41,965 bases of DNA, taken from the IMG/VR virus record IMGVR_UViG_3300049491_000565, positions 1-41,965 of that record, one strand, 5' to 3'. Under the pieces are notes generated by a model. That model did not search any database and had not been told where the DNA came from. It was given only the letters and a program-made list of their open reading frames with translations. This document shows, piece after piece, positions 354 through 33,720 of the stretch. This DNA comes from a virus. Numbering within the stretch: the stretch's first letter is position 1; each line of letters starts with the position of its first letter. Both the position numbers and the translations under genes were made by a program.

Positions 354-359
354 TAGCTT
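354..359 (+). promoter_or_regulatory. -10-like TAGCTT, 7 nt before GTG start
   Basis: The hexamer TAGCTT ends 7 nt before the GTG at 367, and no Shine-Dalgarno sequence precedes that codon. It fits the TAnnnT-to-start pattern seen at nine other genes in the window. A TTGACC at 326-331 is too far away (22 nt) to be a normal -35. Confidence 0.35.
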
Positions 360-366
360 CAAGCCC

Positions 367-1587
367 GTGACCAATTCAGACATCAACATCAAATGGATCG
401 AGACCAAGCTCCTCAAGCCGAACCCCAAGAACAACAACAAGCACTCTAAAGAACAAATAGACCGCCTTGCTAAAATCCTCGCCTACCAAGGCTTTCGCAC
501 CCCCATAGTCGTCGATAAAGATATGACCATCTGGTCTGGTCACGGACGCTTAGAGGCCGCAAAACAACTCGGCCTAAAGAAAGTCCCAGTCTCCGTCCAA
601 GAATTCACAGACGAAACCCAAGCCTACACCTACCTCGTATCAGATAACGCCATTGCCCTTTGGGCTGAACTAGACCTCTCCGCCATCAACGCCCAAACCC
701 TAGATCTAGGCCCATTCGACACCGACCTCCTTGGCTTAGAGAATTGGTCTACAATCGCCGAAGATAAATACGAGGGCAAAGACCTAGACGCTCTCCCCAA
801 CATGAACACCAACGAACGTGGCGTGAAACTCGGCGATCTATACGAGTGCGGACCCCATCGCGTAATGTGCGGAAGCTCCCTTGATCTCGATCAAGTAAAA
901 CACTTAATGGATGGCCAACTAGCAGACCTTTGGATCGCCGACCCACCCTTTGGCGTCTCCTATGTCGAAAAGAATGCCGCCGTGTGTGGCGGCATTGTGA
1001 AAAACGCGGTCGGGAAAGAAATTAAATCCGACACCCTCTCCGTTGAAGAACTAAAACCCTTCTGGAAATCCTGTGCCGAAGCCGCATACGCTGTCACCAC
1101 AGATAAAGCCTCAAACTATTGGTGCGCATGCCAAGGCTCAGACAAGATGATGATGATGATGATGATGATGATGGATGAGGCAGGATGGAACATTCGCCAC
1201 GAGCTTATCTGGGTTAAACAACAATTCGTCTTCGGCAGAAGCGATTACCACTATCGCCATGAGCCAATCATCTACGGCTGGAAGAAAAAAGGAACGCACG
1301 AATGGTTCGCTGACCGCAAACAAGACTCCGTCTTCGAAATCGATCGTCCCCATAAATCAGACCTACACCCCACGACAAAACCCGTTGAGCTTTTCTCTCG
1401 ATTCATCCAAAACTCCACAGCACCAGGACAACGTGTTTTTGAATCCTTTGGTGGCTCAGGCACAACTCTAATAGCATCCGAAAAGCTCGGAAGAGCATCA
1501 AATACAATGGAACTAGACCCCCATTACGTTGGCATTATCATCCAACGCTGGGAAGACCTCACGGGCCTAAAGTCCAAGAAACTGTAA
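367..1587 (+). CDS. ParB-like domain fused to N-4/N-6 DNA methyltransferase
   Basis: This 406-residue protein is predicted to methylate an exocyclic amine of adenine or cytosine in DNA. Residues 1-95 look like a ParB/sulfiredoxin-type domain (SGHGRLEAAKQLG at 57-69). The methyltransferase follows, with catalytic DPPF at 192-195, HPTTKPVEL at 334-342 and the SAM-binding FGGSGTT at 361-367. Catalytic motif before SAM motif is the beta-class order. ParB-MTase fusions are known in phages and prophages, often next to the terminase, and may protect phage DNA from restriction. The start is GTG with no clear ribosome binding site. An odd feature is a run of nine Met (261-269) encoded by (ATG)9 between the motifs. 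Codons are strongly C-ending, unlike genes beyond about 6 kb. Target specificity cannot be read from the sequence. Confidence 0.93.
   Translation: MTNSDINIKWIETKLLKPNPKNNNKHSKEQIDRLAKILAYQGFRTPIVVDKDMTIWSGHGRLEAAKQLGLKKVPVSVQEFTDETQAYTYLVSDNAIALWAELDLSAINAQTLDLGPFDTDLLGLENWSTIAEDKYEGKDLDALPNMNTNERGVKLGDLYECGPHRVMCGSSLDLDQVKHLMDGQLADLWIADPPFGVSYVEKNAAVCGGIVKNAVGKEIKSDTLSVEELKPFWKSCAEAAYAVTTDKASNYWCACQGSDKMMMMMMMMMDEAGWNIRHELIWVKQQFVFGRSDYHYRHEPIIYGWKKKGTHEWFADRKQDSVFEIDRPHKSDLHPTTKPVELFSRFIQNSTAPGQRVFESFGGSGTTLIASEKLGRASNTMELDPHYVGIIIQRWEDLTGLKSKKL
1147..1173 (+). repeat. (ATG)9 trinucleotide microsatellite inside the methyltransferase
   Basis: There are nine perfect in-frame ATG repeats encoding Met 261-269. 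Length changes would keep the frame but lengthen or shorten a segment just before the conserved EAGWNIR region. Confidence 0.95.
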
Positions 1588-1638
1588 AACATCTCAACAC
1601 CTATGCATCGAATTAACACTCATATCAATTATAAGCCC

Positions 1639-1676
1639 ATCCGAGACTCGTTATTAGCTTTCAATACCCATCGGAT
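1639..1676. promoter_or_regulatory. Inverted repeat ATCCGA...TCGGAT in the 106-nt intergenic gap
   Basis: The arms ATCCGA (1639-1644) and TCGGAT (1671-1676) are separated by 26 nt, just upstream of the -10-like element at 1682. This could be an operator or chance. It is not a terminator, as no T tract follows. Confidence 0.25.
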
Positions 1677-1687
1677 AGCTATATACT
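1659..1687 (+). promoter_or_regulatory. Candidate promoter TTTCAA-17 nt-TATACT
   Basis: TATACT at 1682-1687 is a near-consensus -10, with TTTCAA 17 nt upstream as a moderate -35. The -10 ends 6 nt before the ATG at 1694, so transcription would begin at or next to the start codon. Confidence 0.5.
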
Positions 1688-1693
1688 AAGAGT

Positions 1694-1807
1694 ATGACCA
1701 AACCAAAAACTATCAAAGAAACCGTTCAGAAAATTATCCAAAAGAAAACAGGCGCTCAACCAGGCAAGGTCCGTAGCCTCAAAAAGAAAAGAAAGGAGGG
1801 CAAGTAA
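1694..1807 (+). CDS. Small basic protein (37 aa)
   Basis: This is a 37-residue Lys/Arg-rich protein ending in KKKRKEGK, with no recognised family. It is supported by a near-consensus -10 just upstream and by overlap of its 3' end with the ribosome binding site of the next gene (AAAGGAGG at 1792-1799). Its composition suggests nucleic-acid binding, but that is only inference. It could be mainly a leader for the following small genes. Confidence 0.5.
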   Translation: MTKPKTIKETVQKIIQKKTGAQPGKVRSLKKKRKEGK

Positions 1808-1987
1808 ATGTCCCTTCAACTATCCCACGATGACATCGAGCTGCTCATTAAATCCCTTACTCGCCACATCCGTCTCGTCTGCGACTCCGACGACTTCACC
1901 ATCTCCGTTCGCCAACTAGAATCTATCGCCCGCAAACTTACTGACTACAAATACACCCTCCAAAAGGAATCCAATGAGAAAGATTAA
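1808..1987 (+). CDS. Small hypothetical protein (59 aa)
   Basis: This protein of 59 residues begins immediately after the preceding stop and has a strong ribosome binding site, AAAGGAGG, about 8 nt before its ATG. It is polar, probably helical, and rich in Asp, Ser and Arg, with no known domain. It overlaps the next gene by 14 nt, which supports co-translation in a tight early-type cluster. Confidence 0.6.
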   Translation: MSLQLSHDDIELLIKSLTRHIRLVCDSDDFTISVRQLESIARKLTDYKYTLQKESNEKD

Positions 1988-2180
1988 CTGGTGCGAGCCC
2001 CACCACAACGAACTCGTATTCGATGGCCACATTACCGTCGCCCAAAAAATTGAAGACAACACATGGAGCTGGGAAGTCTTCGGCGAAGATAACGACGGCC
2101 ATCCCACCCTCGATGACGCCCTCCGCGCCGCACGCTCTATGGCCCGCTCCATTCAAGGAGAACCAAATGAAACCGACTAA
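1974..2180 (+). CDS. Small hypothetical protein (68 aa)
   Basis: This 68-residue protein has the pattern W-C-x-P-H-H-N at its N-terminus, then a beta-rich central part and a C-terminal helix (DDALRAARSMARSIQ). The layout, short strands followed by an alanine-rich helix, resembles small double-stranded-RNA-binding-like or HicB-like folds, but no motif is decisive. It overlaps its neighbours by 14 nt on both sides. Codons are C-ending like the upstream genes. Confidence 0.6.
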   Translation: MRKINWCEPHHNELVFDGHITVAQKIEDNTWSWEVFGEDNDGHPTLDDALRAARSMARSIQGEPNETD

Positions 2181-2334
2181 AGAAGAAATATCCAAGATTA
2201 TGTCCTACATCGGCAGTATTAAATCCGATGCCAAAACCAAGTCCTCTCGCGAGAACGGCAAAAAAGGCGGCTACCCCAAAGGCCGGAAACGTAAAAAGAT
2301 TTTGCCACTCTGCCCCAACGATGAAGCAGCATAG
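2167..2334 (+). CDS. Small basic hypothetical protein (55 aa)
   Basis: The ATG at 2167 has AAGGAG 6 nt upstream, which fixes this start over an upstream in-frame one at 2023. The product is a 55-residue protein with a helical N-terminus and a basic Gly/Lys segment (GKKGGYPKGRKRKK). No family was recognised. The basic tail suggests nucleic-acid contact. It is the last gene before the packaging promoter. Confidence 0.55.
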   Translation: MKPTKEEISKIMSYIGSIKSDAKTKSSRENGKKGGYPKGRKRKKILPLCPNDEAA

Positions 2335-2390
2335 CTACATATTCTTTCCCGACTATGCTATCTATGTGCTAGAGGAACACGACCGCCAAA

Positions 2391-2407
2391 AATCGCGATT
2401 AAATCGC
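2391..2407. promoter_or_regulatory. Overlapping palindromes AATCGCGATT / GCGATT-A-AATCGC
   Basis: Three alternating half-sites (AATCGC, GCGATT, AATCGC) make a perfect 10-bp palindrome (2391-2400) overlapping a 13-nt inverted repeat (2395-2407). They sit where a -35 box would be for the -10 at 2425. This is a candidate operator or activator site for the terminase/head operon. Confidence 0.45.
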
Positions 2408-2421
2408 CATCAGACGCGACG

Positions 2422-2430
2422 TGCTATACT
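2422..2430 (+). promoter_or_regulatory. Extended -10 TGCTATACT before terminase
   Basis: TG-C-TATACT is a near-consensus extended -10 element. It ends 6 nt before the ATG at 2437, and there is no ribosome binding site between them. No good -35 is present; the palindromes at 2391-2407 occupy that place. Confidence 0.6.
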
Positions 2431-2436
2431 TTAAAC

Positions 2437-2829
2437 ATGGCCATAGGTAAAAAAACTGGGGGACGAGATTTTAAACCCGGCAACAAATCAAACGGCGGCA
2501 GACGCGCTATAGCCGAAGAGATTCGCCAGATTCGCGCTGACCTCTCTCGCTCTCTCGTCGCGTACGTAAAAAAATATTGGAACCTATCCACCGAAGAAAT
2601 TAAAATTAAAATCGCTGATCCAACACTAACCATGGGCGAACAAATATCGCTGAAGTTTATCTCCAACGCTCGTACGAAATCAGATACCGCATATTTAAAA
2701 ACACTCTCTGATTTGTTTGGCCTCGAAGCTGCTATGAAAATCGACCTCTCATCAAGCGACGGTACAATGTCTCCCGTCAACCAAGACCAAATGAAAGAAA
2801 TCGCGAAGGCGTATCTTGACTCCAAATGA
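2437..2829 (+). CDS. terS: Probable terminase small subunit
   Basis: This 130-residue protein sits directly upstream of, and overlaps by 14 nt, the terminase large subunit, the usual place for TerS, which recognises phage DNA for packaging. Its N-terminus (GRDFKPGNKSNGGRR) resembles the KFKPGN..GRP motif of DUF5681-type phage proteins often found before the large terminase. The rest is helical, with the conserved-looking segment TMGEQISLKFISNARTKSD. The function rests mainly on position. No Shine-Dalgarno sequence is seen; initiation may be leaderless from TATACT at 2425. Confidence 0.65.
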   Translation: MAIGKKTGGRDFKPGNKSNGGRRAIAEEIRQIRADLSRSLVAYVKKYWNLSTEEIKIKIADPTLTMGEQISLKFISNARTKSDTAYLKTLSDLFGLEAAMKIDLSSSDGTMSPVNQDQMKEIAKAYLDSK

Positions 2830-4153
2830 ACGTTTCATAAAACAAGCCTGCACGGAATCTCTGCTCGCTTATTGCAAACTTATTAACGTAAATTACGAAA
2901 CTCCTCCGCACATAAAAACACTCGTGAAAAATCTCACAGCTCTCATCAACGGCGAAATAGAAAACCTTCTAGTGTTGATGCCTCCGCGCGGAGGAAAGTC
3001 TCACCTCGCATCCGAGATTTTCCCATCATGGGTTTTAGGAAAAATGAAAAGCTCTCAGGTTCTTTTCTCTTCCTATAACTCTGAACTTGCCACTGACTTC
3101 GGCAGAAAGGTTCGCACCCTCTGCGAAGATCCTAAATACAAACTCGTCTTCGACACTACGGTCTCAGGAGATTCCTCTGCCAACTCACGCTTTCACCTAT
3201 CAAATAACTCTGCCTATTTCGCTACTGGTATCGGCGGATCTGTCGTCGGTCGAGGTTACGACATCGGAATCTTAGACGACCCCTATAAGAAAATGCAGGA
3301 CTCTCTCTCTGACGTGTACCAAAAGAATCTGCACGAATGGTTCTTCTCAACCTTTCTCACTCGTCGCCTCCCCAAAGCGCGCACCCTCGTTATTCAAACC
3401 ATCTGGAGTCAAAACGATATCGGATACAAACTAATCGATGACCCCAAATGGACCGTTCTAAAAATTCCCGCAATCACTGACGACACTTCTTTTTGGCCCG
3501 ATAGATTTTCTCTAGAATATTTACTTGAATTAAAAAAACACAATCCACGTTCTTTCGAGGCTCTCTACCAGCAATCTCCTCGCGTCGAAGAAGGTAACTT
3601 AATTCAAAAGCAGCACATTAAATTTTACCGCACCCTCCCTCCAAATTTCGATGAGATGATTCAAAGCTGGGATCTAACCTTCGACTCAGGAGAGAAGTCA
3701 GACTTCTGCGTCGGCTCCGTTTACGGTCGTCACGGCTCCAACATTTACCTCGTCGATCAAGTTCGAGGAAGATGGGACGTCCTTGAGCAAATGAAACAAA
3801 TCCAATACCTCACCGCAAAATATCCCAAGACACTAAGAAAGCTTATCGAGAAAGCTGCCAACGGTGCTGCCGTTATCACCATGCTCGAAAGCAAAATAAT
3901 GGGAATCATTCCCGTTAAGCCAAGTAAATCTAAAGTTGATCGTGTTATGTCCGTCCTTCCTCTCTACGAAGCGGGCAACGTTCTCTACCCCGATCCCGAC
4001 ATAGCTCCATGGATCGAAGACCATATCGACGAAGTTTTGACGTTTCCTAACGGAAGAAATGATGATCGCGTTGACGCAGAGAGCCAGAGTTGCGAGCATT
4101 TCGCACAGCACTTGAATTCCTTCATGCGAATCGAGGCTCTCTCCAGCATGTGA
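2816..4153 (+). CDS. terL: Terminase large subunit (ATPase/nuclease)
   Basis: This 445-residue motor protein packages DNA into proheads. The N-terminal ATPase has a Walker A variant PPRGGKS (56-62) and Walker B DIGILDD (149-155). The C-terminal RNase-H-like nuclease has QSWDLTFDS, with the metal-binding Asp near 286, and NGRNDDRVDAESQ near 412-424. Its length is normal for the family. The start is TTG at 2816, preceded by AAGG about 6 nt upstream; the nearby ATG at 2826 is out of frame. It overlaps TerS by 14 nt, and the portal gene follows after 13 nt. Confidence 0.95.
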   Translation: MTPNERFIKQACTESLLAYCKLINVNYETPPHIKTLVKNLTALINGEIENLLVLMPPRGGKSHLASEIFPSWVLGKMKSSQVLFSSYNSELATDFGRKVRTLCEDPKYKLVFDTTVSGDSSANSRFHLSNNSAYFATGIGGSVVGRGYDIGILDDPYKKMQDSLSDVYQKNLHEWFFSTFLTRRLPKARTLVIQTIWSQNDIGYKLIDDPKWTVLKIPAITDDTSFWPDRFSLEYLLELKKHNPRSFEALYQQSPRVEEGNLIQKQHIKFYRTLPPNFDEMIQSWDLTFDSGEKSDFCVGSVYGRHGSNIYLVDQVRGRWDVLEQMKQIQYLTAKYPKTLRKLIEKAANGAAVITMLESKIMGIIPVKPSKSKVDRVMSVLPLYEAGNVLYPDPDIAPWIEDHIDEVLTFPNGRNDDRVDAESQSCEHFAQHLNSFMRIEALSSM

Positions 4154-4159
4154 TACCCT
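4154..4159 (+). promoter_or_regulatory. -10-like TACCCT, 7 nt before portal ATG
   Basis: TACCCT ends 7 nt before the ATG at 4167 and no ribosome binding site is visible. It belongs to the recurrent TAnnnT-before-start series. Confidence 0.35.
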
Positions 4160-4166
4160 TTTATTT

Positions 4167-5516
4167 ATGGCGAAGAACCCTGTACTAACCGTAATCGATG
4201 GCTGGAAGTCTATCCTCACCGGATTCGGTGTCAGCGGGAAAGATAAACTCTACGACTTCCTTACGCAATGGGATCGCCCTATCGAGAACTACCTTGAGAA
4301 CGATTACGCAGGCGATGACGTCACTGGTCGCCTCATCGATGAAATTCCTAACGAAGGCACGCGCTCTTGGACTGAAATCATCGGCGCTACTTCTGAGCAA
4401 GAAAAACTAATCACTAATTTAGAAAATAAATTAGACGTCATCCACAAGCACAGACATGCTTGGGTTTGGTCACGCTTGTACGGCGGTTCCGTTATTCTCA
4501 TCAACACCAACGTCGATTCAGCTGACTTAGCTAAGCCATTGAATCTGAAATCAGAGGGTGGAGAGATAAAAGCCCTCACAGTTCTTCATCGTTTCGAGCT
4601 GCAACCAGACTCTTCTTCAATCACTTCCGACATCGCATCCTCGAACTTCGGTCTCCCGGAATTCTATCAACTCACCTCAAGCGTTGGAAACACTAGCTCG
4701 ATCATCACCAAAATTCACTACTCTCGCCTTATTCGTTTCGACGGCTCTCTTCTTCCTCGTCAAAAGTTTCGCGAAAACAATTACTGGCACGATTCCTTTA
4801 TCACTAAGTGCCGTGAGTCCATTCGCAATTACAACGTTGCCCACATGAGTAGCGTTGCTGCTGCCGTCGATTTCTCAGTTCCTGTTATTAAAATGAAGAA
4901 CCTTGCCGACATCGTTTACGCTGGGAAAAAAGATGTTATCGAATCTCGCGTGCATACAATGAATATGTGCAAATCAATGATGCGCATGATTCTATTAGAT
5001 GAATCAGAAACGCTTGAGTATCTCACTCGCACCGTCACAGGCCTTCCTGAATTAGTCTCCAAAGCAGAAGACCGCCTTGTCATGAGTACGAAAATGCCTC
5101 GCACGAAAATCCTTGGAGAATCTCCCAAGGGACTTCAGGGCGACGGCAAATCAGAAGATCGCCAATGGTACGACCTTGTTTCTCAAGAGCGTGAGCGCGT
5201 AATTGAAAAACCCTATACGAAGTTATTCAACCTATTCCTTGAGCAATTAAAGCTACCCACAACTATTTCCTATAAGTTCAAACCACTATGGCAGCAATCA
5301 GATCAAGAGAAAGCTACAACCTATAAAACTTACGCTGAAGCCGATCAGATTTATTTAGCCAATGGAGTTATCTCTCAGGCAACCGTTCAAGAATCTCGCT
5401 TCGGCGGAGATGAATTCGGTACAGAGATTACTCTCACCGCTTCCGACAAAGATATAGAGCTAGAAGAAGAAACTCCTAAAGAAGAAAAGCCAACACCAAA
5501 TGGCGAGCAATCTTAA
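4167..5516 (+). CDS. Portal protein (DUF1073-like)
   Basis: This 449-residue portal protein would form the dodecameric ring at the capsid vertex through which DNA enters and leaves. It matches the DUF1073-type portal pattern. The N-terminus has YLENDYAGDDVTGRLIDEIP. The middle has RLIRFDGSLLP. The segment TVTGLPELVSKAEDRLVMS is followed by the highly characteristic MPRTKILGESPKGLQGDGKSEDRQWYD region. The C-terminus is acidic (KDIELEEETPKEE). It lies between TerL and the minor head protein, which overlaps it by 17 nt. Confidence 0.9.
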   Translation: MAKNPVLTVIDGWKSILTGFGVSGKDKLYDFLTQWDRPIENYLENDYAGDDVTGRLIDEIPNEGTRSWTEIIGATSEQEKLITNLENKLDVIHKHRHAWVWSRLYGGSVILINTNVDSADLAKPLNLKSEGGEIKALTVLHRFELQPDSSSITSDIASSNFGLPEFYQLTSSVGNTSSIITKIHYSRLIRFDGSLLPRQKFRENNYWHDSFITKCRESIRNYNVAHMSSVAAAVDFSVPVIKMKNLADIVYAGKKDVIESRVHTMNMCKSMMRMILLDESETLEYLTRTVTGLPELVSKAEDRLVMSTKMPRTKILGESPKGLQGDGKSEDRQWYDLVSQERERVIEKPYTKLFNLFLEQLKLPTTISYKFKPLWQQSDQEKATTYKTYAEADQIYLANGVISQATVQESRFGGDEFGTEITLTASDKDIELEEETPKEEKPTPNGEQS

Positions 5517-6339
5517 AACTATCGTCTCCGGATCTAAGCTTATAAATAAAAAAGTTAGAAAGCTTCGTCCGCGTTATTCAGGAGTTGTTCTCTATCCACT
5601 CACTGTCGAAACCCAATACCGACAAGAGATTATAGAAATACTCCGTTACGCGCGCGAGCAGGTAAACTCAATCCTCGTCCCTCAACTTCAATCAATCATC
5701 GACATCTATCAAATGAGTCGGACATTTAAAAAAGACTCAGCATACGATGATCTCACCGAGCTTTTAAATTCTATTCGCACACTCGTACAACGAAAAAATA
5801 CGAAGTCACAAGTAGATCAGCTAGCGCAAAATGCAGCATCAGCGACTAGCATCTTTAATAGGAGGCAAGTGACTGAAGCTTATAAGAGGGGGGTTGGGGT
5901 TGATCCACTTCTCAACGAGCCGTGGTTGGGGGAGGAGCTTCAGTCATTTGCCTTTCTTAATTCTCGCCTCATAACTACCGTTCCCGAGAAGTATCTAGAC
6001 GATATTCAGCAACAGATTTTTGACGGTATGGGACAAGGCCTCAGAGCAAGCGAAATAGCTTCCAACTTAGTTGATGCCTATGGCGTGTCTGAAAGGAGAG
6101 CTGCTCTCATTGCTCGTGACCAAATCGGTAAGCTCAACGGAAACCTAAACATGCTTCGAAATCAATCTCTTGGATCCACTAAGTATGTCTGGCTTACTAT
6201 GGGAGATGACCGCGTTCGTGAAGAGCATCAAGGCTATAACGGAGAAACTTTCGAGTGGGCAAACCCACCTGCTGACGGGAATCCCGGGAGTGCCATCAAC
6301 TGTCGATGCGTCGCGTCGCCTGTCTTCGATGAAGAATAG
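5500..6339 (+). CDS. Minor head protein, phage Mu F / SPP1 gp7-like
   Basis: This 279-residue head morphogenesis protein likely binds the portal during prohead assembly. The C-terminal 80 residues have the Mu-F family signature: RVREEH, then a Gly-Glu-Thr-Phe segment, then GNPGSAINCRC (C-x-C pair) just before the end. The N-terminal 150 residues are helical. It overlaps the portal gene, the usual order in such operons. The start ATG at 5500 lies inside the portal gene without a strong ribosome binding site, so translational coupling is likely. Confidence 0.88.
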   Translation: MASNLKTIVSGSKLINKKVRKLRPRYSGVVLYPLTVETQYRQEIIEILRYAREQVNSILVPQLQSIIDIYQMSRTFKKDSAYDDLTELLNSIRTLVQRKNTKSQVDQLAQNAASATSIFNRRQVTEAYKRGVGVDPLLNEPWLGEELQSFAFLNSRLITTVPEKYLDDIQQQIFDGMGQGLRASEIASNLVDAYGVSERRAALIARDQIGKLNGNLNMLRNQSLGSTKYVWLTMGDDRVREEHQGYNGETFEWANPPADGNPGSAINCRCVASPVFDEE

Positions 6340-6350
6340 AAAAATAATGC

Positions 6351-6356
6351 TACGCT
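6351..6356 (+). promoter_or_regulatory. -10-like TACGCT (TGC-TACGCT), 7 nt before ATG
   Basis: An extended-type TGCTACGCT ends 7 nt before the ATG at 6364. No Shine-Dalgarno sequence is present in the 24-nt gap after the minor head gene. Confidence 0.4.
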
Positions 6357-6363
6357 AGTTTGT

Positions 6364-7542
6364 ATGTCATCTGCGGTTAAACGTTACTCGACTATAAAAA
6401 TCGACAGAGTAACTCTCGACGAATACGGATTCCTTCGCACAGAAGGTAACGCCACCCGCGTAGGCGTATTCCGCTATTTGAAATCCGACGGTTCTATCAT
6501 TCTAGAACTGCGGCACCCGGACGAAGTTTTCAAAGCTGATTCGGTCCGTACTCTTCGTGGTGTACCTGTCACTAATCGCCATCCAACTGAGGGCGTAGTG
6601 AATTCCAAGAACGCTAAAAATTGGCAAGTCGGTTACACTGGCGACGTCAAAGTAGACGACCCGTTCATCAAAGCCGAAGTCACAATCACCTCCGACGAGG
6701 GAATCCAAGCAGTGCAAAATGGTACTCAAGAACTTTCTTGCGGCTACCAATGCGAGCTAGATTACACACCAGGTGAATGGAATGGTCTTCGCTACGATGC
6801 AATTCAGCGAAACATTAGATACAATCATCTTGCTATCGTCGATCAAGGTCGTGCTGGCTCAAGTGTTCGTCTGAAACTTGACGCAGAGGGTGCTATCGAA
6901 GTCGCAGATGACGTTAAAGTTATTAAAGAGGAGAAAATTATGAAAAAAGTAAAACTCGGAACCAAGGAGTTTGAGTGTGACAATGAGCTTGCAGAAGCCA
7001 TCGAAGCTCAAGCTGCACTATCTGAAACCGCTGTTGCTGAAGCAAAAGCTGCTGGTGAAGTTGCTGTTGCCGAAAGCGCTGCTAAAATCGCTGAAGGCGA
7101 AGCTGCTCTTGGCGAAGAAAAAGCTAAGTGCGATGCCCTCCAAGCTAAAGTCGATCATCTTGAAAAAGATAAGAACACTAAGACTGACGCTGACGAAGTT
7201 AAAGCTCTCGTGCGCGAGCGCCTGAAGCTTGAGCGCGTTGCTAGCCTTGTTCTTGACTCAGCTACCACTGAGAAAATGGACACCTTGTCCGATAAAGAAA
7301 TCAAAGTCGCTGTCATTAAAGCTGACCGATCTGATTTCTCTGATGAAGGAAAATCCGATGTCTACATCGATGCTGCTTTCGACCTGGCTGTAGAGTCAGT
7401 TAAGAAGAAAAATCGTGAAGACGTTGGTTCAAAAGTTATTACCGCAACCGACGGTTCCGTGATTACAGCCGACCAAGCTCGTGCGAAATCTATGGAAGAG
7501 TCAAAAAATGCTTGGAAGCAGCCCTTGAGCGCAGCCAAGTAA
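6364..7542 (+). CDS. Prohead protease-scaffold fusion (DUF2213-like)
   Basis: The 392-residue product has an N-terminal DUF2213-type domain (about 1-185), including LRHPDEVFKADSVRTLRGVPVTNRHP split over 49-72, a QELSCGYQCELDY stretch and NHLAIVDQGRAG. Members of this group are taken as prohead proteases. The C-terminal half is an Ala/Glu/Lys-rich coiled coil typical of a scaffold. Position between the minor head protein and the capsid protein supports both roles. A second in-frame start with a much better ribosome binding site lies at 6940, giving a scaffold alone. The catalytic residues of the protease are not established from this sequence. Confidence 0.82.
   Translation: MSSAVKRYSTIKIDRVTLDEYGFLRTEGNATRVGVFRYLKSDGSIILELRHPDEVFKADSVRTLRGVPVTNRHPTEGVVNSKNAKNWQVGYTGDVKVDDPFIKAEVTITSDEGIQAVQNGTQELSCGYQCELDYTPGEWNGLRYDAIQRNIRYNHLAIVDQGRAGSSVRLKLDAEGAIEVADDVKVIKEEKIMKKVKLGTKEFECDNELAEAIEAQAALSETAVAEAKAAGEVAVAESAAKIAEGEAALGEEKAKCDALQAKVDHLEKDKNTKTDADEVKALVRERLKLERVASLVLDSATTEKMDTLSDKEIKVAVIKADRSDFSDEGKSDVYIDAAFDLAVESVKKKNREDVGSKVITATDGSVITADQARAKSMEESKNAWKQPLSAAK
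6940..7542 (+). CDS. Nested scaffolding protein from internal start
   Basis: ATG codon 193 of the protease-scaffold gene is preceded by AAAGAGGAG with a 6-nt spacer, far stronger than the start of the full gene, which has no ribosome binding site. The nested product has 200 residues: a short KKVKLGTKEFECDNEL segment, a long Ala/Glu coiled coil, and a charged C-terminus. The arrangement copies the lambda C/Nu3 design, in which a protease and an independently made scaffold share a frame. Independent translation is an inference from the ribosome binding site. Confidence 0.65.
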   Translation: MKKVKLGTKEFECDNELAEAIEAQAALSETAVAEAKAAGEVAVAESAAKIAEGEAALGEEKAKCDALQAKVDHLEKDKNTKTDADEVKALVRERLKLERVASLVLDSATTEKMDTLSDKEIKVAVIKADRSDFSDEGKSDVYIDAAFDLAVESVKKKNREDVGSKVITATDGSVITADQARAKSMEESKNAWKQPLSAAK

Positions 7543-7572
7543 CATGTACCATAAAAAGAAGGAGACTATAAA

Positions 7573-8067: not shown

Positions 8068-8092
8068 TCGGAAGGAATGAGGATTAAATAAT

Positions 8093-9019: not shown

Positions 9020-9060
9020 TTTTAAAAACATTACCCTCCTTGGTTATGTTTAAAAAGTTG

Positions 9061-9100: not shown

Positions 9101-9115
9101 TTTGTCCAACCTACC

Positions 9116-9913: not shown

Positions 9914-9914
9914 A

Positions 9915-12975: not shown

Positions 12976-12988
12976 ACTAAGGTAGTCT
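12959..12988 (+). promoter_or_regulatory. Candidate promoter TTGAAG-18 nt-TAGTCT
   Basis: TTGAAG (12959-12964) and TAGTCT (12983-12988) are 18 nt apart. The -10 ends 7 nt before the ATG at 12996, which has no ribosome binding site. It overlaps the 3' end of the tube gene. Confidence 0.45.
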
Positions 12989-26195: not shown

Positions 26196-26380
26196 CCAAA
26201 GAGGACGACGAGAAATACAACAAGCTGTATCCAGAGTTGGCTATACGCATAGTGAAGTTTACTAGGGATAGGGGTCGTCCTCCGACCGAAGAAGAAGAAA
26301 CAAAGCTACTAGAACAAATTATTGACGATGACTCGCGGGGTAAACTGAAGGCGTACAAGCCTTGCGGAAAAGCTAATTAG
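26192..26380 (+). CDS. Small charged hypothetical protein (62 aa)
   Basis: This is a highly charged 62-residue protein (many Glu, Asp, Lys) that starts in an ATGA overlap with the glycosyltransferase. No family was recognised. No membrane segment is seen. Confidence 0.55.
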   Translation: MTKEDDEKYNKLYPELAIRIVKFTRDRGRPPTEEEETKLLEQIIDDDSRGKLKAYKPCGKAN

Positions 26381-26391
26381 CCCTGTAGCAT
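26362..26391 (+). promoter_or_regulatory. Candidate promoter TTGCGG-18 nt-TAGCAT
   Basis: TTGCGG (26362-26367) and TAGCAT (26386-26391) are 18 nt apart. The -10 ends 7 nt before the ATG at 26399, a gene with only a weak ribosome binding site. It probably drives the lysis cluster. Confidence 0.5.
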
Positions 26392-26398
26392 CTGAGAT

Positions 26399-27040
26399 AT
26401 GAGGAACCCTTTATTATACTTTATTTTGTTTTTCCCTTGGGCTATTGCTAATGCGTCGATCGCAACAAGTGACTTGTCAGCGTGCAGAAAGCCTGTTCTA
26501 AACCGTGGAGTTATTCCCGAGAGTACCTTAAGAGAGTTTATCGATTGGGCAAAGTCTGCTCCAGATGAAGTCTTCACTGTTAATTCTAAATACGATGTGT
26601 ACTCAAGCGTTGTTGGAGAGCTTGGTCCATATAGGGGTCTCACGCATAGACGCGCGGTAATGGTCGACGTACTTCGTGTACTTGGAGGTTTTGAGTCTAG
26701 CTGGGATTACAGTGAGGGCATTGATGTCAATAACGGATCGTCTGCTCAAAGCAAGTGCAACGAAGAAGCTGGGATATTTCAAACGAGTGCCAATTCCATG
26801 ACGTTCGATAGATCGTTAAAAACGCTGTTTATCGATCAATGTTCAGGTCTGAGCGGAAAAACCGACTGTATTCGATTCATCAACTGTTCAAAGAATAACC
26901 CCAAGCACCTCTTCGTGATTGAATACACCGCTAGGCTTATTCGATTTACGGTTAATCATCATGGGCCATTGAAGCGTCGCGAAATTCACAAGTGGTTACG
27001 TCGCGATTGTGTATCTGCCGTAGAGAAACTCTTGCTATGA
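26399..27040 (+). CDS. Secreted lysozyme/lytic transglycosylase-like endolysin
   Basis: This 213-residue protein has a signal peptide (hydrophobic core at 5-18, ending IANAS). The mature part has GGFESSWDYSEG, with a candidate catalytic Glu at 99, and EEAGIFQTSANSM (122-134), the E-S...G-x-x-Q-x-S arrangement of lysozyme-superfamily transglycosylases. It would cleave peptidoglycan glycan strands. Six Cys suggest periplasmic disulfides. Sec export rather than a holin would release it, or a holin may act in addition. Confidence 0.72.
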   Translation: MRNPLLYFILFFPWAIANASIATSDLSACRKPVLNRGVIPESTLREFIDWAKSAPDEVFTVNSKYDVYSSVVGELGPYRGLTHRRAVMVDVLRVLGGFESSWDYSEGIDVNNGSSAQSKCNEEAGIFQTSANSMTFDRSLKTLFIDQCSGLSGKTDCIRFINCSKNNPKHLFVIEYTARLIRFTVNHHGPLKRREIHKWLRRDCVSAVEKLLL

Positions 27041-27041
27041 T
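27036..27041 (+). promoter_or_regulatory. -10-like TATGAT (TGC-TATGAT), 5 nt before ATG
   Basis: An extended -10-type TGCTATGAT overlaps the end of the endolysin gene and ends 5 nt before the ATG at 27047. It is the closest spacing in the series. Confidence 0.4.
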
Positions 27042-27046
27042 GAGGT

Positions 27047-27493: not shown

Positions 27494-27966
27494 TGATAAA
27501 AAGAAGGGGGCCGTGTCTTGAGGAAAGATTTTGGCCAAGAGTTAACAAAGACACTCTAAATGGGTGTTGGATTTGGCTTGGCGCAAGTGCCCCTTCAGGA
27601 CACGGAAGGATAGGAAATCATAATAAGGTTTACCAAACCCACAGGGTATCATGGGAGCTTGAATATGGATCAATCCCAGCGGGACTGTGTGTTCTTCATA
27701 AGTGTGACAATCCTAGATGCGTTAACCCTGAACATCTTTTTCTAGGAACACAAATAGAAAACTTAAAAGATATGGATCAAAAAAAACGTAGGAGAGTTGG
27801 CGTTGGAATAAGAAATGCGAACGCTAAATTAAACAATGAAAGTGTCATGGAAATAAGAGAAAAATACTCAAGTGGCTCATTTACTAAAACTGCACTATCA
27901 GAAAAATATGGAGTATCTCAGTCAACCATTAGACAGGTAGTGGAAAGAAAGACTTGGAGGCTTTAA
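27493..27966 (+). CDS. HNH endonuclease, homing type
   Basis: This 157-residue protein has an N-terminal NUMOD/HNH-type fold: GCWIWLGASAPSGHGRI, then THRVSWELEYGSIPAGLCVLHKCDNPRCVNPEHLFLGT (HNH_3 style, about 50-88). A C-terminal helix-turn-helix (FTKTALSEKYGVSQSTIRQVVER) would bind DNA. It is a mobile gene that spreads by cutting alleles without it. It starts inside the stop of the preceding gene (TAATG). Codons are A/T-rich relative to neighbours. Confidence 0.9.
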   Translation: MIKRRGPCLEERFWPRVNKDTLNGCWIWLGASAPSGHGRIGNHNKVYQTHRVSWELEYGSIPAGLCVLHKCDNPRCVNPEHLFLGTQIENLKDMDQKKRRRVGVGIRNANAKLNNESVMEIREKYSSGSFTKTALSEKYGVSQSTIRQVVERKTWRL

Positions 27967-28200
27967 ATGGAATTTCTAATGGGATGGGGCAATCTACTTG
28001 CCGAAGTAGCCGCCTACATAGGACTCAAGAAACTAAGAGAGCATTCGGACCAATACACAAAGCTAGAACTAGAGCTTAAGAAGGAATTCGAGAAGCCGTA
28101 TGCTGAGAGAGATGACCTAAAATTCGTATCCATTAAAAGAGAGCTAGCGATTATTCGAGCTGCCTTTGAAAGGGACATGAAACTTGGTGCCGACAAATGA
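27967..28200 (+). CDS. Small helical protein, possible spanin/holin-related
   Basis: This 77-residue protein has a weakly hydrophobic N-terminus (MEFLMGWGNLLAEVAAYIGL) then a charged coiled coil (DQYTKLELELKKEFEK). It overlaps the downstream lipoprotein by 4 nt (ATGA). Inner-membrane/lipoprotein pairs in a lysis cluster can be spanins, but the hydrophobic segment is short, so this is only a suggestion. Confidence 0.55.
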   Translation: MEFLMGWGNLLAEVAAYIGLKKLREHSDQYTKLELELKKEFEKPYAERDDLKFVSIKRELAIIRAAFERDMKLGADK

Positions 28201-28643
28201 TAAGGTTGCTGCTGGGGGTTCTCTTTCTAGTGGCGTGTTCCTCACTAACTGTTGTGGATAGAGGACCCCTCTTTAACCTACTGCTTCGTCCGTATCCGGG
28301 GGAGGTGGGCAAATTAGTGAATCAACGATGCACGGAGTACACCTTCTTTAAATGCGTAAAGTTTGACCGTCTAGGATGGGATTTACGAGTGAAAGAAGAG
28401 CGTCAGCAATTAATCGATTTAAAGTTTGTATGCGATGTCGGAGGTCAAAGATTTGGCGTATGTGCTGACAAGGCTGCTCTTTGTCAGGTGACGACCTACA
28501 AGAAGACGTTTCTTGGAATTAAGGTTAAGACCTACACGGCAGTCATCAAGGAAATAAGCTTAGTGGATAAGTACGATCAATTACTCAATGCGAACACTTA
28601 TTGCGCAGCGCAAGAATCTGATCTGGGAAAAGAAATGTTCTAG
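28197..28643 (+). CDS. Lipoprotein
   Basis: This 148-residue protein has an N-terminal signal of type II: hydrophobic IRLLLGVLFLVAC then SS, with a lipobox LVAC (Cys 14). The mature part has several more Cys (RCTEY, KCVKF, VCDV, VCAD, LCQV, YCAA) and probably disulfides. It is coupled to the small helical protein upstream. It could be the outer-membrane spanin partner or a superinfection-exclusion lipoprotein. No family was recognised. Confidence 0.7.
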   Translation: MIRLLLGVLFLVACSSLTVVDRGPLFNLLLRPYPGEVGKLVNQRCTEYTFFKCVKFDRLGWDLRVKEERQQLIDLKFVCDVGGQRFGVCADKAALCQVTTYKKTFLGIKVKTYTAVIKEISLVDKYDQLLNANTYCAAQESDLGKEMF

Positions 28644-28652
28644 TCTAGGTAG

Positions 28653-28658
28653 TACACT
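28653..28658 (+). promoter_or_regulatory. -10-like TACACT, 6 nt before ATG
   Basis: TACACT lies in the 21-nt gap before the second fibre cluster, ending 6 nt before the ATG at 28665. No ribosome binding site is present. Confidence 0.4.
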
Positions 28659-28664
28659 GATCTC

Positions 28665-30875
28665 ATGGCTACAGCTGCTAATAAGACAAAGATTCCACCT
28701 GGCGGAACACTAGGCCAGGTTCTCACTAAAAACTCATCTACTAATTTTGATTACAGTTGGACGAGTCCTGCTGGTGCGGTGTCTTCTGTCTTTGGTCGTA
28801 CTGGCGCTGTAGTTGCTCAGAGTGGTGATTATTCCACGTCTCTTGTAACTGAGGGGACTAATCTTTATTGGACTCAGGCAAGATTCGATACGGCGTTCGC
28901 AGCAAAATCAACGAGTGGATTAGCTGAAGGGTCGAATCTTTATTTCACGGATGCTCGCGCACGCACGGCTGTTATTGCGTCTTCAATTATTAACGGAGAC
29001 CTTACTCACGCACCCGATGGTAACTCTGTATTTGATGCTTTAAATAGCAAGGTGGATCTTTTCGCTGGAGACCCTAACGCTATTGTTTTCTCAGGGCCAT
29101 CTAGCGACATTCAAACAGAAGCAAACTTTACATGGAACGGATCAGCGATGAACGTTCCCGGTACCATTACTGCAACGAACCTTAGTGGCACGAACACTGG
29201 AAACCAAACAGCAGCAACAGTGCCAAATACCCCTGCTGGGAATATCGCAGCTACAACTGTACAAGCGGCATTAAACGAATTGGATGCTGAAAAGGTTATT
29301 GGAAACACAGCCATTACTGGATCGACGAAAACTAAAATCACATACGACGCTAAGGGATTGGTAACGTCGGGTGCTGATGCAGCTGTTGCAGACATAACTG
29401 GACTACAGACGTTACTTGACGGCAAGTGGTCACAGGCTGGTGACACGATTGCAAGTGGAACTAAAACCATAGGCAATACAAACGCTGGCACTGCTGTAAT
29501 TGAGGCACGAGTAAACAATTTTAAGTGGGGGAAGTTTAGTAATACAGAGAGACTTTTTTACGACACTAACGGAAACAATCCTGTCGTTGATTTTAATTTA
29601 CTTACACTTAATCAAAGTGATGGGACGGCAAAGGTTCTTTGGTCCGCTGGGATATTAAACAATAGTAGCGGCACTCCTTCGGTTAACTGGGAAGATTCAA
29701 CTTTCTACAATCCTCAATCGGCAACAGTTGCTTTAGATTTAAACAATCTTCAATTTTTTGATGAGAATTCAAATACGTCACTTGATTTCTCAAGTAGTGG
29801 AGGCGAGCCAAGAACGTTGCTTGATTTTGCTTCAGGACCCTCTATTCGATGGCACAACAGAGAGCTGATAGATTACGCAGGCGTCACAGCTTTAAACTAT
29901 GAGAATGGTTCTTCTTCTGCGAGGTGCATGTTCGACCATAACGGATTTAGGTCAATAAGCTGGGGGGAAAGCGGTAGATATTTACAAGCATCGTCTGGGT
30001 TTACCGCACATGACTGGGAAAGCGGATATATTTATGACACAACGGACGGATCATATTCGGCTCAATTTATTCAACGTTATTTATATTACCCAGGCACTAA
30101 CAGTTATGCGATAGATTGGGGAACAGGTGTTTGGTATTCACCAAGCTTTGAACAACGCATTGTTATCAATGATACAGGTAGCGATAGTTATCTTGCTGGT
30201 GATTTTGGTGCGTCGCTTGTTTCTTGGAGGTCCGACAGTGGAAATATGCGTCTTGGGTTTTTTGGTGTAGCCGCCGTTATTCAACCTTCAATTGTAGACG
30301 CAATAACCGGACTAGAAACTCTTGGGCTTTTTCAAACAGGTGGTAGTAACTATTATTCTATGGCTAGGTTCGCTGGACTGTCTCAATATCTAATCCCATT
30401 TGGAACAGCTGCAACAGCGTTTGGATCAAACTCAAACTTTAACTTTGACTTCAACAACGTGAGATTCACACTAGGCAGCGCACAGGGCGGCAACAACATT
30501 GCCAAAGGAAACTTTGTTGCGACCTCCGCAGCCGATGTTGTTTCTAGATTTGTTGGAACCACTTCCCAGTCTGGTGATTTGTCGAGATGGTGTAACTCCG
30601 CAAACACAACTTTATCCTTGGTGACGTCTGCTGGTAAGTTTTCTATTGGAACGGCCTCAGCCCCTACTGCTTTATTGATGTTAGGTGCTGGGACGACAGC
30701 AGCAAGTACTGCTCCCCTAAAATTTAATAACGGGCCATTGAATACAACGTCTGAAGCCGGATCAATGGAGTTTAGGGACGAGAAATATTATCTCACGCCA
30801 ACAACAAACGCGTCAACGCGCAGGTTTCCTATAGCGTCCGATAACAACCCTCTAGGAATGCAGGTATTTTCATGA
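28665..30875 (+). CDS. Large tail fibre protein
   Basis: This 736-residue protein is Ser/Thr/Asn/Gly-rich with no catalytic motif. The N-terminus has the fibre-type repeat TEGTNLYWTQARFDTAFAAKS / AEGSNLYFTDARARTAVIA and a collagen-free stalk. The later part is beta-helix-like. The C-terminal STAPLKFNNGPLN..GSMEFRDEKYYLTPT resembles segments near fibre chaperone domains. It is the likely long fibre of a second adhesin cluster (28.6-32.8 kb). Confidence 0.8.
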   Translation: MATAANKTKIPPGGTLGQVLTKNSSTNFDYSWTSPAGAVSSVFGRTGAVVAQSGDYSTSLVTEGTNLYWTQARFDTAFAAKSTSGLAEGSNLYFTDARARTAVIASSIINGDLTHAPDGNSVFDALNSKVDLFAGDPNAIVFSGPSSDIQTEANFTWNGSAMNVPGTITATNLSGTNTGNQTAATVPNTPAGNIAATTVQAALNELDAEKVIGNTAITGSTKTKITYDAKGLVTSGADAAVADITGLQTLLDGKWSQAGDTIASGTKTIGNTNAGTAVIEARVNNFKWGKFSNTERLFYDTNGNNPVVDFNLLTLNQSDGTAKVLWSAGILNNSSGTPSVNWEDSTFYNPQSATVALDLNNLQFFDENSNTSLDFSSSGGEPRTLLDFASGPSIRWHNRELIDYAGVTALNYENGSSSARCMFDHNGFRSISWGESGRYLQASSGFTAHDWESGYIYDTTDGSYSAQFIQRYLYYPGTNSYAIDWGTGVWYSPSFEQRIVINDTGSDSYLAGDFGASLVSWRSDSGNMRLGFFGVAAVIQPSIVDAITGLETLGLFQTGGSNYYSMARFAGLSQYLIPFGTAATAFGSNSNFNFDFNNVRFTLGSAQGGNNIAKGNFVATSAADVVSRFVGTTSQSGDLSRWCNSANTTLSLVTSAGKFSIGTASAPTALLMLGAGTTAASTAPLKFNNGPLNTTSEAGSMEFRDEKYYLTPTTNASTRRFPIASDNNPLGMQVFS

Positions 30876-30905
30876 TTAAAATAAGGGAAAGAATCGAGGC
30901 ATAAA

Positions 30906-31259
30906 ATGGCACAGCTATTTACTAAGGCAAAATTATCGGGGTCTACAAACGGAAAAAATATAAAAGTTGTAGCCACAGCAACCGCTGGAACACTGATCCA
31001 CACAGCGGTAACTGGAACTTCTAGCTTAGATGAGATTTGGCTGTGGGCGTATAACGGCCATACTGCCGATGTTGTATTGACTTTAGAATGGGGCGGGGTT
31101 GCAGTCCCCGATGATCAAACGATTGTAACTATTCCATTTAAACAGGGGCGTTTTTTAATTGTTGACGGAAAACTTTTAAATAACTCACTTATCGTTAGAG
31201 CTTTTGCAAGTGTAGCTAACGTCGTCATTATTGACGGATACGTGAATGGGATCGTGTAA
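30906..31259 (+). CDS. Small beta-rich fibre-associated protein
   Basis: This 117-residue beta-rich protein follows the fibre gene and resembles small jelly-roll-like accessory proteins found in fibre clusters (SSLDEIWLWAYNGHTADVVLTLEWGG). It has a GAGG element upstream. The function is not established. Confidence 0.6.
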   Translation: MAQLFTKAKLSGSTNGKNIKVVATATAGTLIHTAVTGTSSLDEIWLWAYNGHTADVVLTLEWGGVAVPDDQTIVTIPFKQGRFLIVDGKLLNNSLIVRAFASVANVVIIDGYVNGIV

Positions 31260-31681
31260 TGGGCAGAAGGACAACAAGCAATACTCTTATCGGTGGCGCG
31301 CTGCCAATTGCGATGGGAGGAACTGGACAAATAAATGGGCACGCCATTGGGTATGGTCCTACTCCAGGGATTGCGGCGGGAGCAGGCGCAGGAACTGGGC
31401 CCAGTGTTTCTGTCACAGGAACAGACTCGGCTGGTGAGATTTCAGTTACTACAGGAACAACGCCGACGGCAGGGGCAACTGTCTTCACAGTTACTTTTAA
31501 TAAACCTTTTGCCACAACTCCTTATGTTGTTTTCTCTAGAAGCAATGCGAATGCTGCCCTATTGAACGGAACTACAATGGTATTTGTTACACCTTCTACA
31601 ACTACTTTTATATTTACAGCTGGATCTGCTGCCTTAACGGCATCTACCCAGTATAAATGGTCCTACCATACAGTTGGTTAA
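31259..31681 (+). CDS. Fibre tip-type protein
   Basis: This 140-residue Gly/Thr/Ala-rich protein starts at ATG 31259 inside the preceding TAA. The N-terminus (LIGGALPIAMGGTGQ) and the C-terminal TVTFNKPFATTPYVVFSRSNANAAL resemble fibre C-terminal domains. It may be a fibre tip encoded separately from the shaft. Confidence 0.65.
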   Translation: MGRRTTSNTLIGGALPIAMGGTGQINGHAIGYGPTPGIAAGAGAGTGPSVSVTGTDSAGEISVTTGTTPTAGATVFTVTFNKPFATTPYVVFSRSNANAALLNGTTMVFVTPSTTTFIFTAGSAALTASTQYKWSYHTVG

Positions 31682-31694
31682 TAAGGAGAGTAAA

Positions 31695-31877
31695 ATGGCA
31701 ATAGTATATTCAAAAACAGCAGATGGAAAACTAATGGTAACGGACTCTAAAATAGTTGAAGAAAAGCACGATCTTCGACAACTTCGTAAACACAAGCAAA
31801 TGCTTAAGGCTAAGCTAGATGAGATTAACATTTTGATTGATGAAGCTGTAAAATTAGGAGCAACAGATGAGCCATAA
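31695..31877 (+). CDS. Small coiled-coil protein (60 aa)
   Basis: The ATG at 31695 with AAGGAG upstream (9 nt spacing) is preferred over an in-frame start at 31674. The 60-residue product has a charged helix (LRQLRKHKQMLKAKLDEINILIDEAVK). It may be a fibre assembly factor or chaperone. Evidence is weak beyond the ribosome binding site. Confidence 0.65.
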   Translation: MAIVYSKTADGKLMVTDSKIVEEKHDLRQLRKHKQMLKAKLDEINILIDEAVKLGATDEP

Positions 31878-32040
31878 AAAAGAAGAGATCGCAAACGCAT
31901 TACAAAGACTTTTAAGCATCGCTTTGCAGTCACCAATGTCTGAGAAAGAGCATGTTGAAAATAGAAAAGCAGCTAACTTGCTGGCTATAGAACTTGGTCT
32001 TATAGAGGCACCTAAAGAAGAAGAACCTAAAAGTGAGTAG
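31867..32040 (+). CDS. Small helical protein (57 aa)
   Basis: This protein of 57 residues overlaps the previous gene by 11 nt and has an amphipathic charged sequence. It has two helices (HKKEEIANALQRLLSIAL; HVENRKAANLLAIELGL) and no recognised family. The overlap with both neighbours supports expression. Confidence 0.6.
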   Translation: MSHKKEEIANALQRLLSIALQSPMSEKEHVENRKAANLLAIELGLIEAPKEEEPKSE

Positions 32041-32452
32041 CTTAGCTGTTGGTGGAGCTATTCCACTTTCATTGCAATTACCGAATGGGGAGTCTAATAA
32101 ATTCCCCAGAGCGATTATATATAATGCAGATAGAACTGTGTTCGCTGGACCGATTGACCTAAGTCATAATGCTCTTGGCGAATACAAAGCTGCTGCAACT
32201 TACTCGATGCCATCTCAGGATTTTATCGTTGTTCAGTATATTGTTTACACGGATGCCGGACACACGACAGAGGACACCGACACATCAAACGGTAGAGTGT
32301 CTGTAGAATTTACTCGTCAATCAGATCCTTCTCAGATCAATAGAGCTGTAGAACTTGAAGCTGAGTTTCAATCTATTCAATTAGAAGTTGAATTTCAAAA
32401 CGTACAATTAGACGCCAACATCGCTCATGTTGAGCTAAACTCGGTTCCATAG
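32033..32452 (+). CDS. Fibre-cluster structural protein
   Basis: This 139-residue protein starts at GTG 32033. It has a beta-rich N-terminal domain (LSLQLPNGESNKFPRAIIYNAD...FIVVQYIVYTDAGHT) and a C-terminal repeated stretch of VELEAEFQSIQLEVEFQNVQLD, a short alternating pattern likely to form a coiled or beta segment. Such modules occur in virion accessory proteins. The function is uncertain. Confidence 0.62.
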   Translation: MSSLAVGGAIPLSLQLPNGESNKFPRAIIYNADRTVFAGPIDLSHNALGEYKAAATYSMPSQDFIVVQYIVYTDAGHTTEDTDTSNGRVSVEFTRQSDPSQINRAVELEAEFQSIQLEVEFQNVQLDANIAHVELNSVP

Positions 32453-32460
32453 GAGGATTC

Positions 32461-32784
32461 ATGGGAGCTTATTCATTCGTAAAAGGTTCAGACGTTACAA
32501 TCACTGTTCAGGTAAAAGATAAGGATACTAAGGTTCCTTACGCTTTAACTGGATTTACTTCAGCTACTCTTTTCATTAAGAAAGATGACAACACTTACCT
32601 CTCAGCAACGGGGACTCTAGTTTCTTCTGATTTAGGCAAGTTATCGTTTACTATCAATGAAACCGATTCCGACACGTTGAGAGCTGGAACTAAGTTAGAT
32701 ATTCAGCTGACGGTAAACCAAGGAAGTACAAAGACTAATTTCTTGATTAACGAAATGCTCTCAATATATGAGAACCTTGCATGA
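32461..32784 (+). CDS. Ig-like/BppU-like domain protein
   Basis: This 107-residue protein has the pattern FVKGSDVTITVQVKDKDTKVPYALTGFTSATLFIKK, a beta-sandwich N-terminal module of baseplate upper (BppU-like) proteins, with a second strand set after it. It has a good ribosome binding site (AGGAGG) and overlaps the next gene by 4 nt. Confidence 0.65.
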   Translation: MGAYSFVKGSDVTITVQVKDKDTKVPYALTGFTSATLFIKKDDNTYLSATGTLVSSDLGKLSFTINETDSDTLRAGTKLDIQLTVNQGSTKTNFLINEMLSIYENLA

Positions 32785-33359
32785 GTAAGCTTCTTCCTCC
32801 GTCTAAGCCAAATCAAACGGCTGGCTGGGTTGATAAAATTATTAACCGCTTTCAGCTTTCACTAGAGGGCTGTCAGTTCGTTATCGTGTGTGTCAGGGGA
32901 TACTACAACGAGTCTATGGGCGAGAGTCGCTATAACGATCGAGGTATTTACGACGACGCATTTTTTATTCGTAACCTAAAAACAGGTCTATTTGCTCCAT
33001 TCAACGGAAACGCTGACCCCGCGCTTTACCGTGAGGGCATAGCTTCTGTTCAAGAGGATCAAGTCGTTTGGTACAAGAAGGGTAGACACGGACTGGGGAA
33101 ACCCACCGAGCATTGGGCACTAAGGCAAGCTCGTCCATTGAAAGTTAAACGAGATAACGGAAAGGGCGGATATACGTACCATGCTCCTTCCTGGCCATGG
33201 ACAAACCTCCACAGAGGCGGATCCAAGGGCACATCAAGCATTGGATGCTTGACCGTGCCACCTAGTCAGTGGGACTCCTTCTTGGCCCTTGCGTACGTGC
33301 AATTAAAAGAATCCAACCAAGCTGAGGTGCCGTGTGTTCTCGTTGAGTTGGCTGGCTGA
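32781..33359 (+). CDS. YkuD-like (L,D-transpeptidase-fold) enzyme
   Basis: This 192-residue protein ends with NLHRGGSKGTSSIGCLTVPP (142-161): His 144, Ser 152/153 and Cys 156 fit the H-x(n)-S-x-G-C pattern of YkuD domains, which form or cleave peptidoglycan cross-links. The rest has short strands and no signal peptide. In a phage it could be an endolysin or an enzyme altering the peptidoglycan of infected cells. The next gene, a membrane protein, overlaps or is 46 nt downstream. Confidence 0.7.
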   Translation: MSKLLPPSKPNQTAGWVDKIINRFQLSLEGCQFVIVCVRGYYNESMGESRYNDRGIYDDAFFIRNLKTGLFAPFNGNADPALYREGIASVQEDQVVWYKKGRHGLGKPTEHWALRQARPLKVKRDNGKGGYTYHAPSWPWTNLHRGGSKGTSSIGCLTVPPSQWDSFLALAYVQLKESNQAEVPCVLVELAG

Positions 33360-33393
33360 CACAATAAGTCATAATCTTTTAGATCAACGGATA

Positions 33394-33399
33394 TACCCT
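33394..33399 (+). promoter_or_regulatory. -10-like TACCCT, 6 nt before ATG
   Basis: TACCCT ends 6 nt before the ATG at 33406, supporting that start over the GTG at 33334. No ribosome binding site is visible. Confidence 0.4.
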
Positions 33400-33405
33400 A
33401 AACTA

Positions 33406-33720
33406 ATGTTGGAATACTCAAGTGAATTCCTAATGAACGCTGCTCTAGCGGCAGTGGGTTCTTTAATAGTTTTACTGCTTGGAGTACTGGCATTTTTTCT
33501 TATGCGTTTAATTAGTCAACTAGATACCACCACGAAAACAGTGGATAACTTGTCTCTAAAGTTTGCCGTATATATCGGGCAAGAAAATAAACATAAAGAA
33601 GAGATTGCTGAGTTTAAAAATAAAGTGAGTCTTATTAATCGAAGGCTTATTGCTATGAGGTTTAAAGCGGAAAGTGCTGGATGGAAATTCAAGGCTGAAG
33701 AGTGGGACGTTAATAACTAG
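33406..33720 (+). CDS. Single-TM membrane protein with coiled coil
   Basis: From the ATG at 33406 this is a 104-residue protein with one strong transmembrane segment (NAALAAVGSLIVLLLGVLAF) and a long charged coiled coil after it. The layout fits an inner-membrane spanin or holin-like lysis protein. A GTG start at 33334 would add 24 residues and overlap the YkuD-like gene. Its TAG stop shares the CTAG palindrome with the stop of the convergent gene at 33717. Confidence 0.72.
   Translation: MLEYSSEFLMNAALAAVGSLIVLLLGVLAFFLMRLISQLDTTTKTVDNLSLKFAVYIGQENKHKEEIAEFKNKVSLINRRLIAMRFKAESAGWKFKAEEWDVNN

Follow-up and report, generated by a model that had tools for sequence, protein, structure and literature searches.

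TAnnnT boxes abutting the start codons of ten phage genes as candidate leaderless promoters

Introduction

The cI gene of phage lambda is expressed as a leaderless mRNA from a promoter whose start site coincides with the start codon. Whereas cI is a single repressor gene, a tailed-phage contig from IMG/VR (41,965 bases, 44% G+C), which in its full length is the window analysed here, has ten structural or late-side genes that lack a Shine-Dalgarno (SD) sequence and carry a TAnnnT hexamer directly before the start codon. Are these hexamers the -10 elements of leaderless promoters, and what do they say about the host? The middle and late promoters and leaderless mRNAs of the Thermus thermophilus phage phiYS40 were reportedly first described by Sevostyanova et al. 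in 2007. Most middle and late mRNAs of this phage have been reported as leaderless (PMC3594737). Few phages are documented to express packaging and structural genes from leaderless mRNAs, and in the open literature we found no genome-wide description of leaderless phage expression outside Thermus phages. Among bacteria, TAnnnT about 12 bp upstream is a published signature of leaderless genes (Zheng 2011, PMC3160421), and the TANNNT beside Deinococcus ORFs has been proven by mutation to be the -10 element of leaderless mRNAs, with a distance requirement (PMC12340547).

Results and discussion

Ten hexamers, all previously listed in the earlier note, were recovered from the window, each ending 5–7 nt before a start codon (Table 1). 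The first T of the box lies at -11 to -13 in 10/10 genes, and the fifth position is C in seven of them (TAnnCT). The box is preceded by TG in four genes (2437, 4167, 6364, and 27047), one more than the earlier note had counted. The same note had listed three plausible -35 elements. Three hexamers do reach at least 4/6 matches to TTGACA at a spacing of 15–18 nt (those at 367 and 12996 given in Table 1, and TCGCCA before 2437), but only that of 367, and perhaps that of 12996, is credible. The other seven box genes have no credible -35 by TTGACA match and 15–18 nt spacing, and the absence of a recognisable -35 from 7/10 boxes counts against a promoter. The gene starts are well constrained: nine of the ten are the earliest possible start in frame, the exception being 33406 with two earlier in-frame GTG/TTG codons, and 26399 and 27047 have an in-frame stop no more than 6 nt from the start. 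The 130-aa ORF at 2437, which immediately precedes the terminase large subunit gene, has no family match.

Table 1. TAnnnT boxes and gene arrays of the window
Feature	Position	Strand	Start codon	Gene or remark
TAGCTT	354..359	+	7 nt before GTG 367	ParB/N6-N4 methyltransferase; TAGACA 16 nt upstream of box
TATACT	1682..1687	+	6 nt before ATG 1694	37-aa ORF
TGcTATACT (extended -10)	2425..2430	+	6 nt before ATG 2437	130-aa ORF
TGaTACCCT (extended -10)	4154..4159	+	7 nt before ATG 4167	portal
TGcTACGCT (extended -10)	6351..6356	+	7 nt before ATG 6364	head maturation protease
TAGTCT	12983..12988	+	7 nt before ATG 12996	tail assembly chaperone; TTGAAG 18 nt upstream of box
TAGCAT	26386..26391	+	7 nt before ATG 26399	product without assigned function
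TGcTATGAT (extended -10)	27036..27041	+	5 nt before ATG 27047	box overlaps TGA stop of upstream gene
TACACT	28653..28658	+	6 nt before ATG 28665	736-aa protein
TACCCT	33394..33399	+	6 nt before ATG 33406	104-aa protein, last rightward gene
Rightward genes	367 to 33720	+		ParB/methyltransferase fusion, terminase large subunit, portal, minor head protein, protease, capsid, tail sheath, tail chaperone, tape measure, baseplate proteins
Leftward genes	34257 to right end	-		helicase, DUF6948 protein, fumarylacetoacetate-hydrolase-like protein, C39-like peptidase, patatin

The 46 rightward genes were classed by start as SD-led, SD-less and overlapping or abutting the previous gene, or SD-less and gapped, that is, separated from the preceding gene by at least 5 nt. 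Counted by class, TAnnnT at 5–7 nt precedes the start of all SD-less gapped genes (10/10), of 0/11 SD-less genes overlapping or abutting the previous stop, and of 1/25 SD genes. For these counts, in which the strict SD window and the genes 31695 and 31867 were fixed after the data had been seen, Fisher's test gives p = 2.8e-6; an earlier, looser classification gave 9/10 versus 0/9 and leads to the same conclusion. The box thus behaves as a start signal that replaces SD only where coupling is also absent. That SD genes do not carry the box, as proposed before, holds for 24/25; the single match, TAGGAT of gene 17643, overlaps the gene's own SD. The suggestion that a whole late region might use the boxes does not stand, since they precede only 10/46 rightward genes and the remainder are SD-led or overlapping. 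Start signals hence split cleanly into SD, coupled, and putatively leaderless ones with one borderline case, and this split allows transcription units to be read off the bare sequence.

Less selective counts agree. TAnnnT at 5–7 nt precedes 11/56 of all genes against a background of 4.1% (p = 1.6e-5) and 9/19 SD-less plus-strand genes (p = 2e-8), but only 6/375 (1.6%) of in-frame ATG/GTG/TTG codons within genes and none of the leftward genes examined. Motif discovery over three-base gapped hexamers at 22 positions ranks TAnnnT at 5–7 nt first. When the upstream 40 nt were dinucleotide-shuffled, a mean of 0.8/10 genes had the box, the maximum was six, and none of 20,000 shuffles reached ten. 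The observation of the earlier note is confirmed. With an automatic classification and no hand-picked starts, the window ranks top among viral and prophage loci (6/13 gapped genes, p = 1e-5).

The proposal that a -10 abutting the start yields leaderless mRNA is supported by the spacing, the extended -10 in 4/10 genes, the replacement of SD, and, as described below, the profile of phiYS40 and promoters of distant phages. We consider it very probable that the boxes are -10-only or extended -10 promoters and that leaderless mRNAs head some ten late transcription units; late expression is suggested by the gene content. The box spacing fits a sigma70 -10 element with the A or G of the start codon as +1, and the messages of box genes probably have the start codon at their very 5' end. 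Specifically, we infer that the host's housekeeping RNA polymerase would read the ten TAnnnT boxes as -10 elements, four of them extended (TGnTAnnnT), and open the DNA there, in most cases at sites lacking a -35. Transcription would begin at, or about 1 nt from, the A or G of the start codon, and the resulting mRNA with its 5' AUG or GUG would be loaded by 70S ribosomes or by IF2-assisted subunits without SD. Each box gene (367, 1694, 2437, 4167, 6364, 12996, 26399, 27047, 28665, and 33406) would head a unit, in which downstream genes use SD or coupling to the previous stop, for example 5500 after 4167 and 27493 after 27047. No clear intrinsic terminator was found on the plus strand between the proposed units; read-through messages must therefore also exist, and the units are best seen as nested. 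Sites with both sigma70 boxes are about as frequent in the first 20 kb as in shuffled sequence and rarer than that in the second 20 kb, which counts in favour of this reading.

We compared the window with known leaderless systems. As a positive control, 50 kb of phiYS40 was analysed by the same kind of histogram: 8/17 SD-less genes form a peak at 6–7 nt, in agreement with the window, and the box is found at 5–7 nt in 0/36 SD genes. Both phages place a single -10-like element directly before ORFs with SD-led genes alongside, and in both it abuts many genes, ten in the window. The two differ in that phiYS40 is a 152-kb record with 33% G+C in the tested stretch and a Thermus host, whereas the window has 42 kb and 44% G+C; the phiYS40 type also involves host polymerase, and for phiYS40 there is evidence on IF2/IF3, which shift in the infected host, whereas the window, read from sequence, offers 10/46 rightward box genes. 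The box, its distance, the exclusion of SD, and the position at first genes of units are likewise shared with Deinococcus-Thermus and Actinobacteria (PMC3160421, PMC12340547), where the cases are chromosomal, whereas those of the window are phage packaging, head, tail, and unassigned genes. The box distance agrees with the signature of Zheng 2011, and SD is absent from the same genes. By its start signals the window, an uncultured phage, is a further instance of the phiYS40-type organisation of putative leaderless late promoters, and these signals separate into classes unusually cleanly.

The strongest rival holds that the hexamer is a non-SD translation signal within a long polycistronic late mRNA, and no promoter. 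The genes do form one rightward array without clear terminators, and the box is present exactly where other translation signals are absent; but it resembles a -10 element down to the TG extension, and the Deinococcus box is a promoter by mutation (PMC12340547). Two phage loci bear on this further. In L007, the homologues of the portal gene 4167 and the protease gene 6364 are preceded by TTGACA-16-TATTCT-6-ATG and TTGACA-16-TATCCT-6-ATG, respectively. In L041, a Candidatus Termititenax aidoneus contig, TTGACT-16-TATCTT-6-ATG and TTGACA-16-TACATT-6-ATG precede two genes located after its terminase. L007 and L041, distant in sequence, thus have complete -35/-10 promoters at the window's offset from the start, and a box 16 nt behind TTGACA or TTGACT would be meaningless for translation. 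We consider the translation signal improbable.

Less probable still is a phage-encoded sigma factor or activator that reads the boxes as a private late promoter class, in the manner of T4-type late transcription. A late-type gene set with a -10-like box mostly lacking a -35 would suit it, but the proteins scanned, which are a part of all proteins, include no recognisable sigma factor or activator of transcription. Moreover, T4-type late promoters combine a phage sigma with an extended late box, whereas the boxes of the window are ordinary TAnnnT, and identical ones occur on bacterial chromosomes. Chance, with starts picked to fit a pattern that is weak where upstream DNA is rich in A+T, is hardly credible: although only three bases are fixed and about 4% of positions match in a 3-nt window, the shuffles refute it at p below 1e-4, nearly all starts are the first in frame, and SD genes go without the box.

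Promoter-like sites were also found before other protease homologues. TTGACA lies 34–38 nt before the start in 5/108 non-redundant homologues of the protease 6364 versus 0.1 expected, and the upstream regions suggest a recurrent internal promoter before the head maturation protease gene in distantly related phages. A conserved leaderless promoter at every homologue was rejected, as only a minority has one. The Edwardsiella phage MSW-3 protease gene has a TTGACA-17-TACTAT promoter, but the leader there is about 20 nt long. Among L007, L008, L006, L218, L203, L198, and L202, several have a promoter-like site near the protease start, with TTGACA or TAGGCA 16–17 nt from a -10.

Across the 300-odd viral and prophage loci, few others score comparably with the window, among them L041, L255, L242, and L244. 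In L242 and L244 (27% G+C), the box is hard to separate from base composition. L255 (65% G+C) has TAGAGT, TAGGTT, and TAGACT 6–7 nt before three starts, and this phage contig is probably another leaderless phage.

We then considered whether the trait belongs to the phage lineage or to the host. The pattern is absent from 34 loci whose major capsid protein is 44–66% identical to that of the window, a result that weighs against the promoter reading. Inheritance within the phage lineage was therefore rejected; with the boxes missing from close relatives, the trait looks host-tuned, and it may be so. Chromosomes were surveyed by start-anchored histograms of TAnnnT 5–7 nt before the start. The box occurs at 45 SD-less chromosomal genes versus 11 expected in Candidatus Termititenax (L303-L322) and at 24 versus 5.7 expected in the Margulisbacteria-phylum genome G049 (L364-L373), both with a peak at 6 nt. 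Leaderless genes are apparently widespread on these chromosomes; in the open literature we found no paper naming Termititenax or Margulisbacteria with leaderless genes. The Paceibacterota genome G003 (L399-L403) has 15 versus 3.8 expected and SD in only 8/90 genes, Micrococcus has a small TAnnnT peak from few genes, and the Kluyvera control has none. The earlier note, which named Deinococcus and actinobacteria, took such boxes as a hint at the host. This is supported only in part: the box also occurs in two genomes of the Margulisbacteria phylum and in a Paceibacterota genome, outside the groups named, and so indicates no single phylum.

The major capsid protein was searched against genomes of candidate host phyla. 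Matches came from 2/74 genomes of the Margulisbacteria phylum (47% identity) and 1/296 of the Nocardioides phylum (46%), only weak ones from samples of the Thermomicrobiales, Desulfovibrio, and Caldicoprobacter phyla, and none from 380 Paceibacterota genomes. Host assignment by this protein was abandoned, and codon usage did not discriminate. G049 has 43% G+C, and the capsid of a prophage in it is 47% identical to that of the window. Its boxes share the exact hexamers TATACT, TACACT, TAGTCT, and TATGAT with the window, with C at position 5 in 12/25 and TG in 11/25. These features would partly fit a Margulisbacteria-like host. However, the box is not used by the G049 prophage, SD genes are fewer in G049 than in the window, and the fit is equally good for other phyla in which leaderless genes occur. 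We offer as a tentative and rather doubtful reading that the host is an uncultured lineage, possibly near G049, whose chromosome uses extended -10 leaderless promoters (often TAnnCT), that some ten leaderless late units of the phage, each independent, imitate this host signal, and that the grammar of start signals might mark the hosts of uncultured phages. If host-tuned, such boxes could help to assign hosts to uncultured phages. Gene callers relying on SD alone could misplace starts in such genomes.

Aside from the boxes, the window has several features of its own. Its first 25 kb have no near DNA relative in a near-identity search of 50,697 phage records, and a tRNA search of the window found none. 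The small genes 31695-31877 and 31867-32040, absent from the first gene list, occupy the gap before 32033, so that gene 32033 overlaps its predecessor. Tandem in-frame ATG codons (atgatgatg...) at 1147-1173 within the methyltransferase gene are a possible slippage site. The fumarylacetoacetate-hydrolase-family protein encoded at 35905-36720 on the minus strand is unusual for a phage and may represent an auxiliary metabolic gene.
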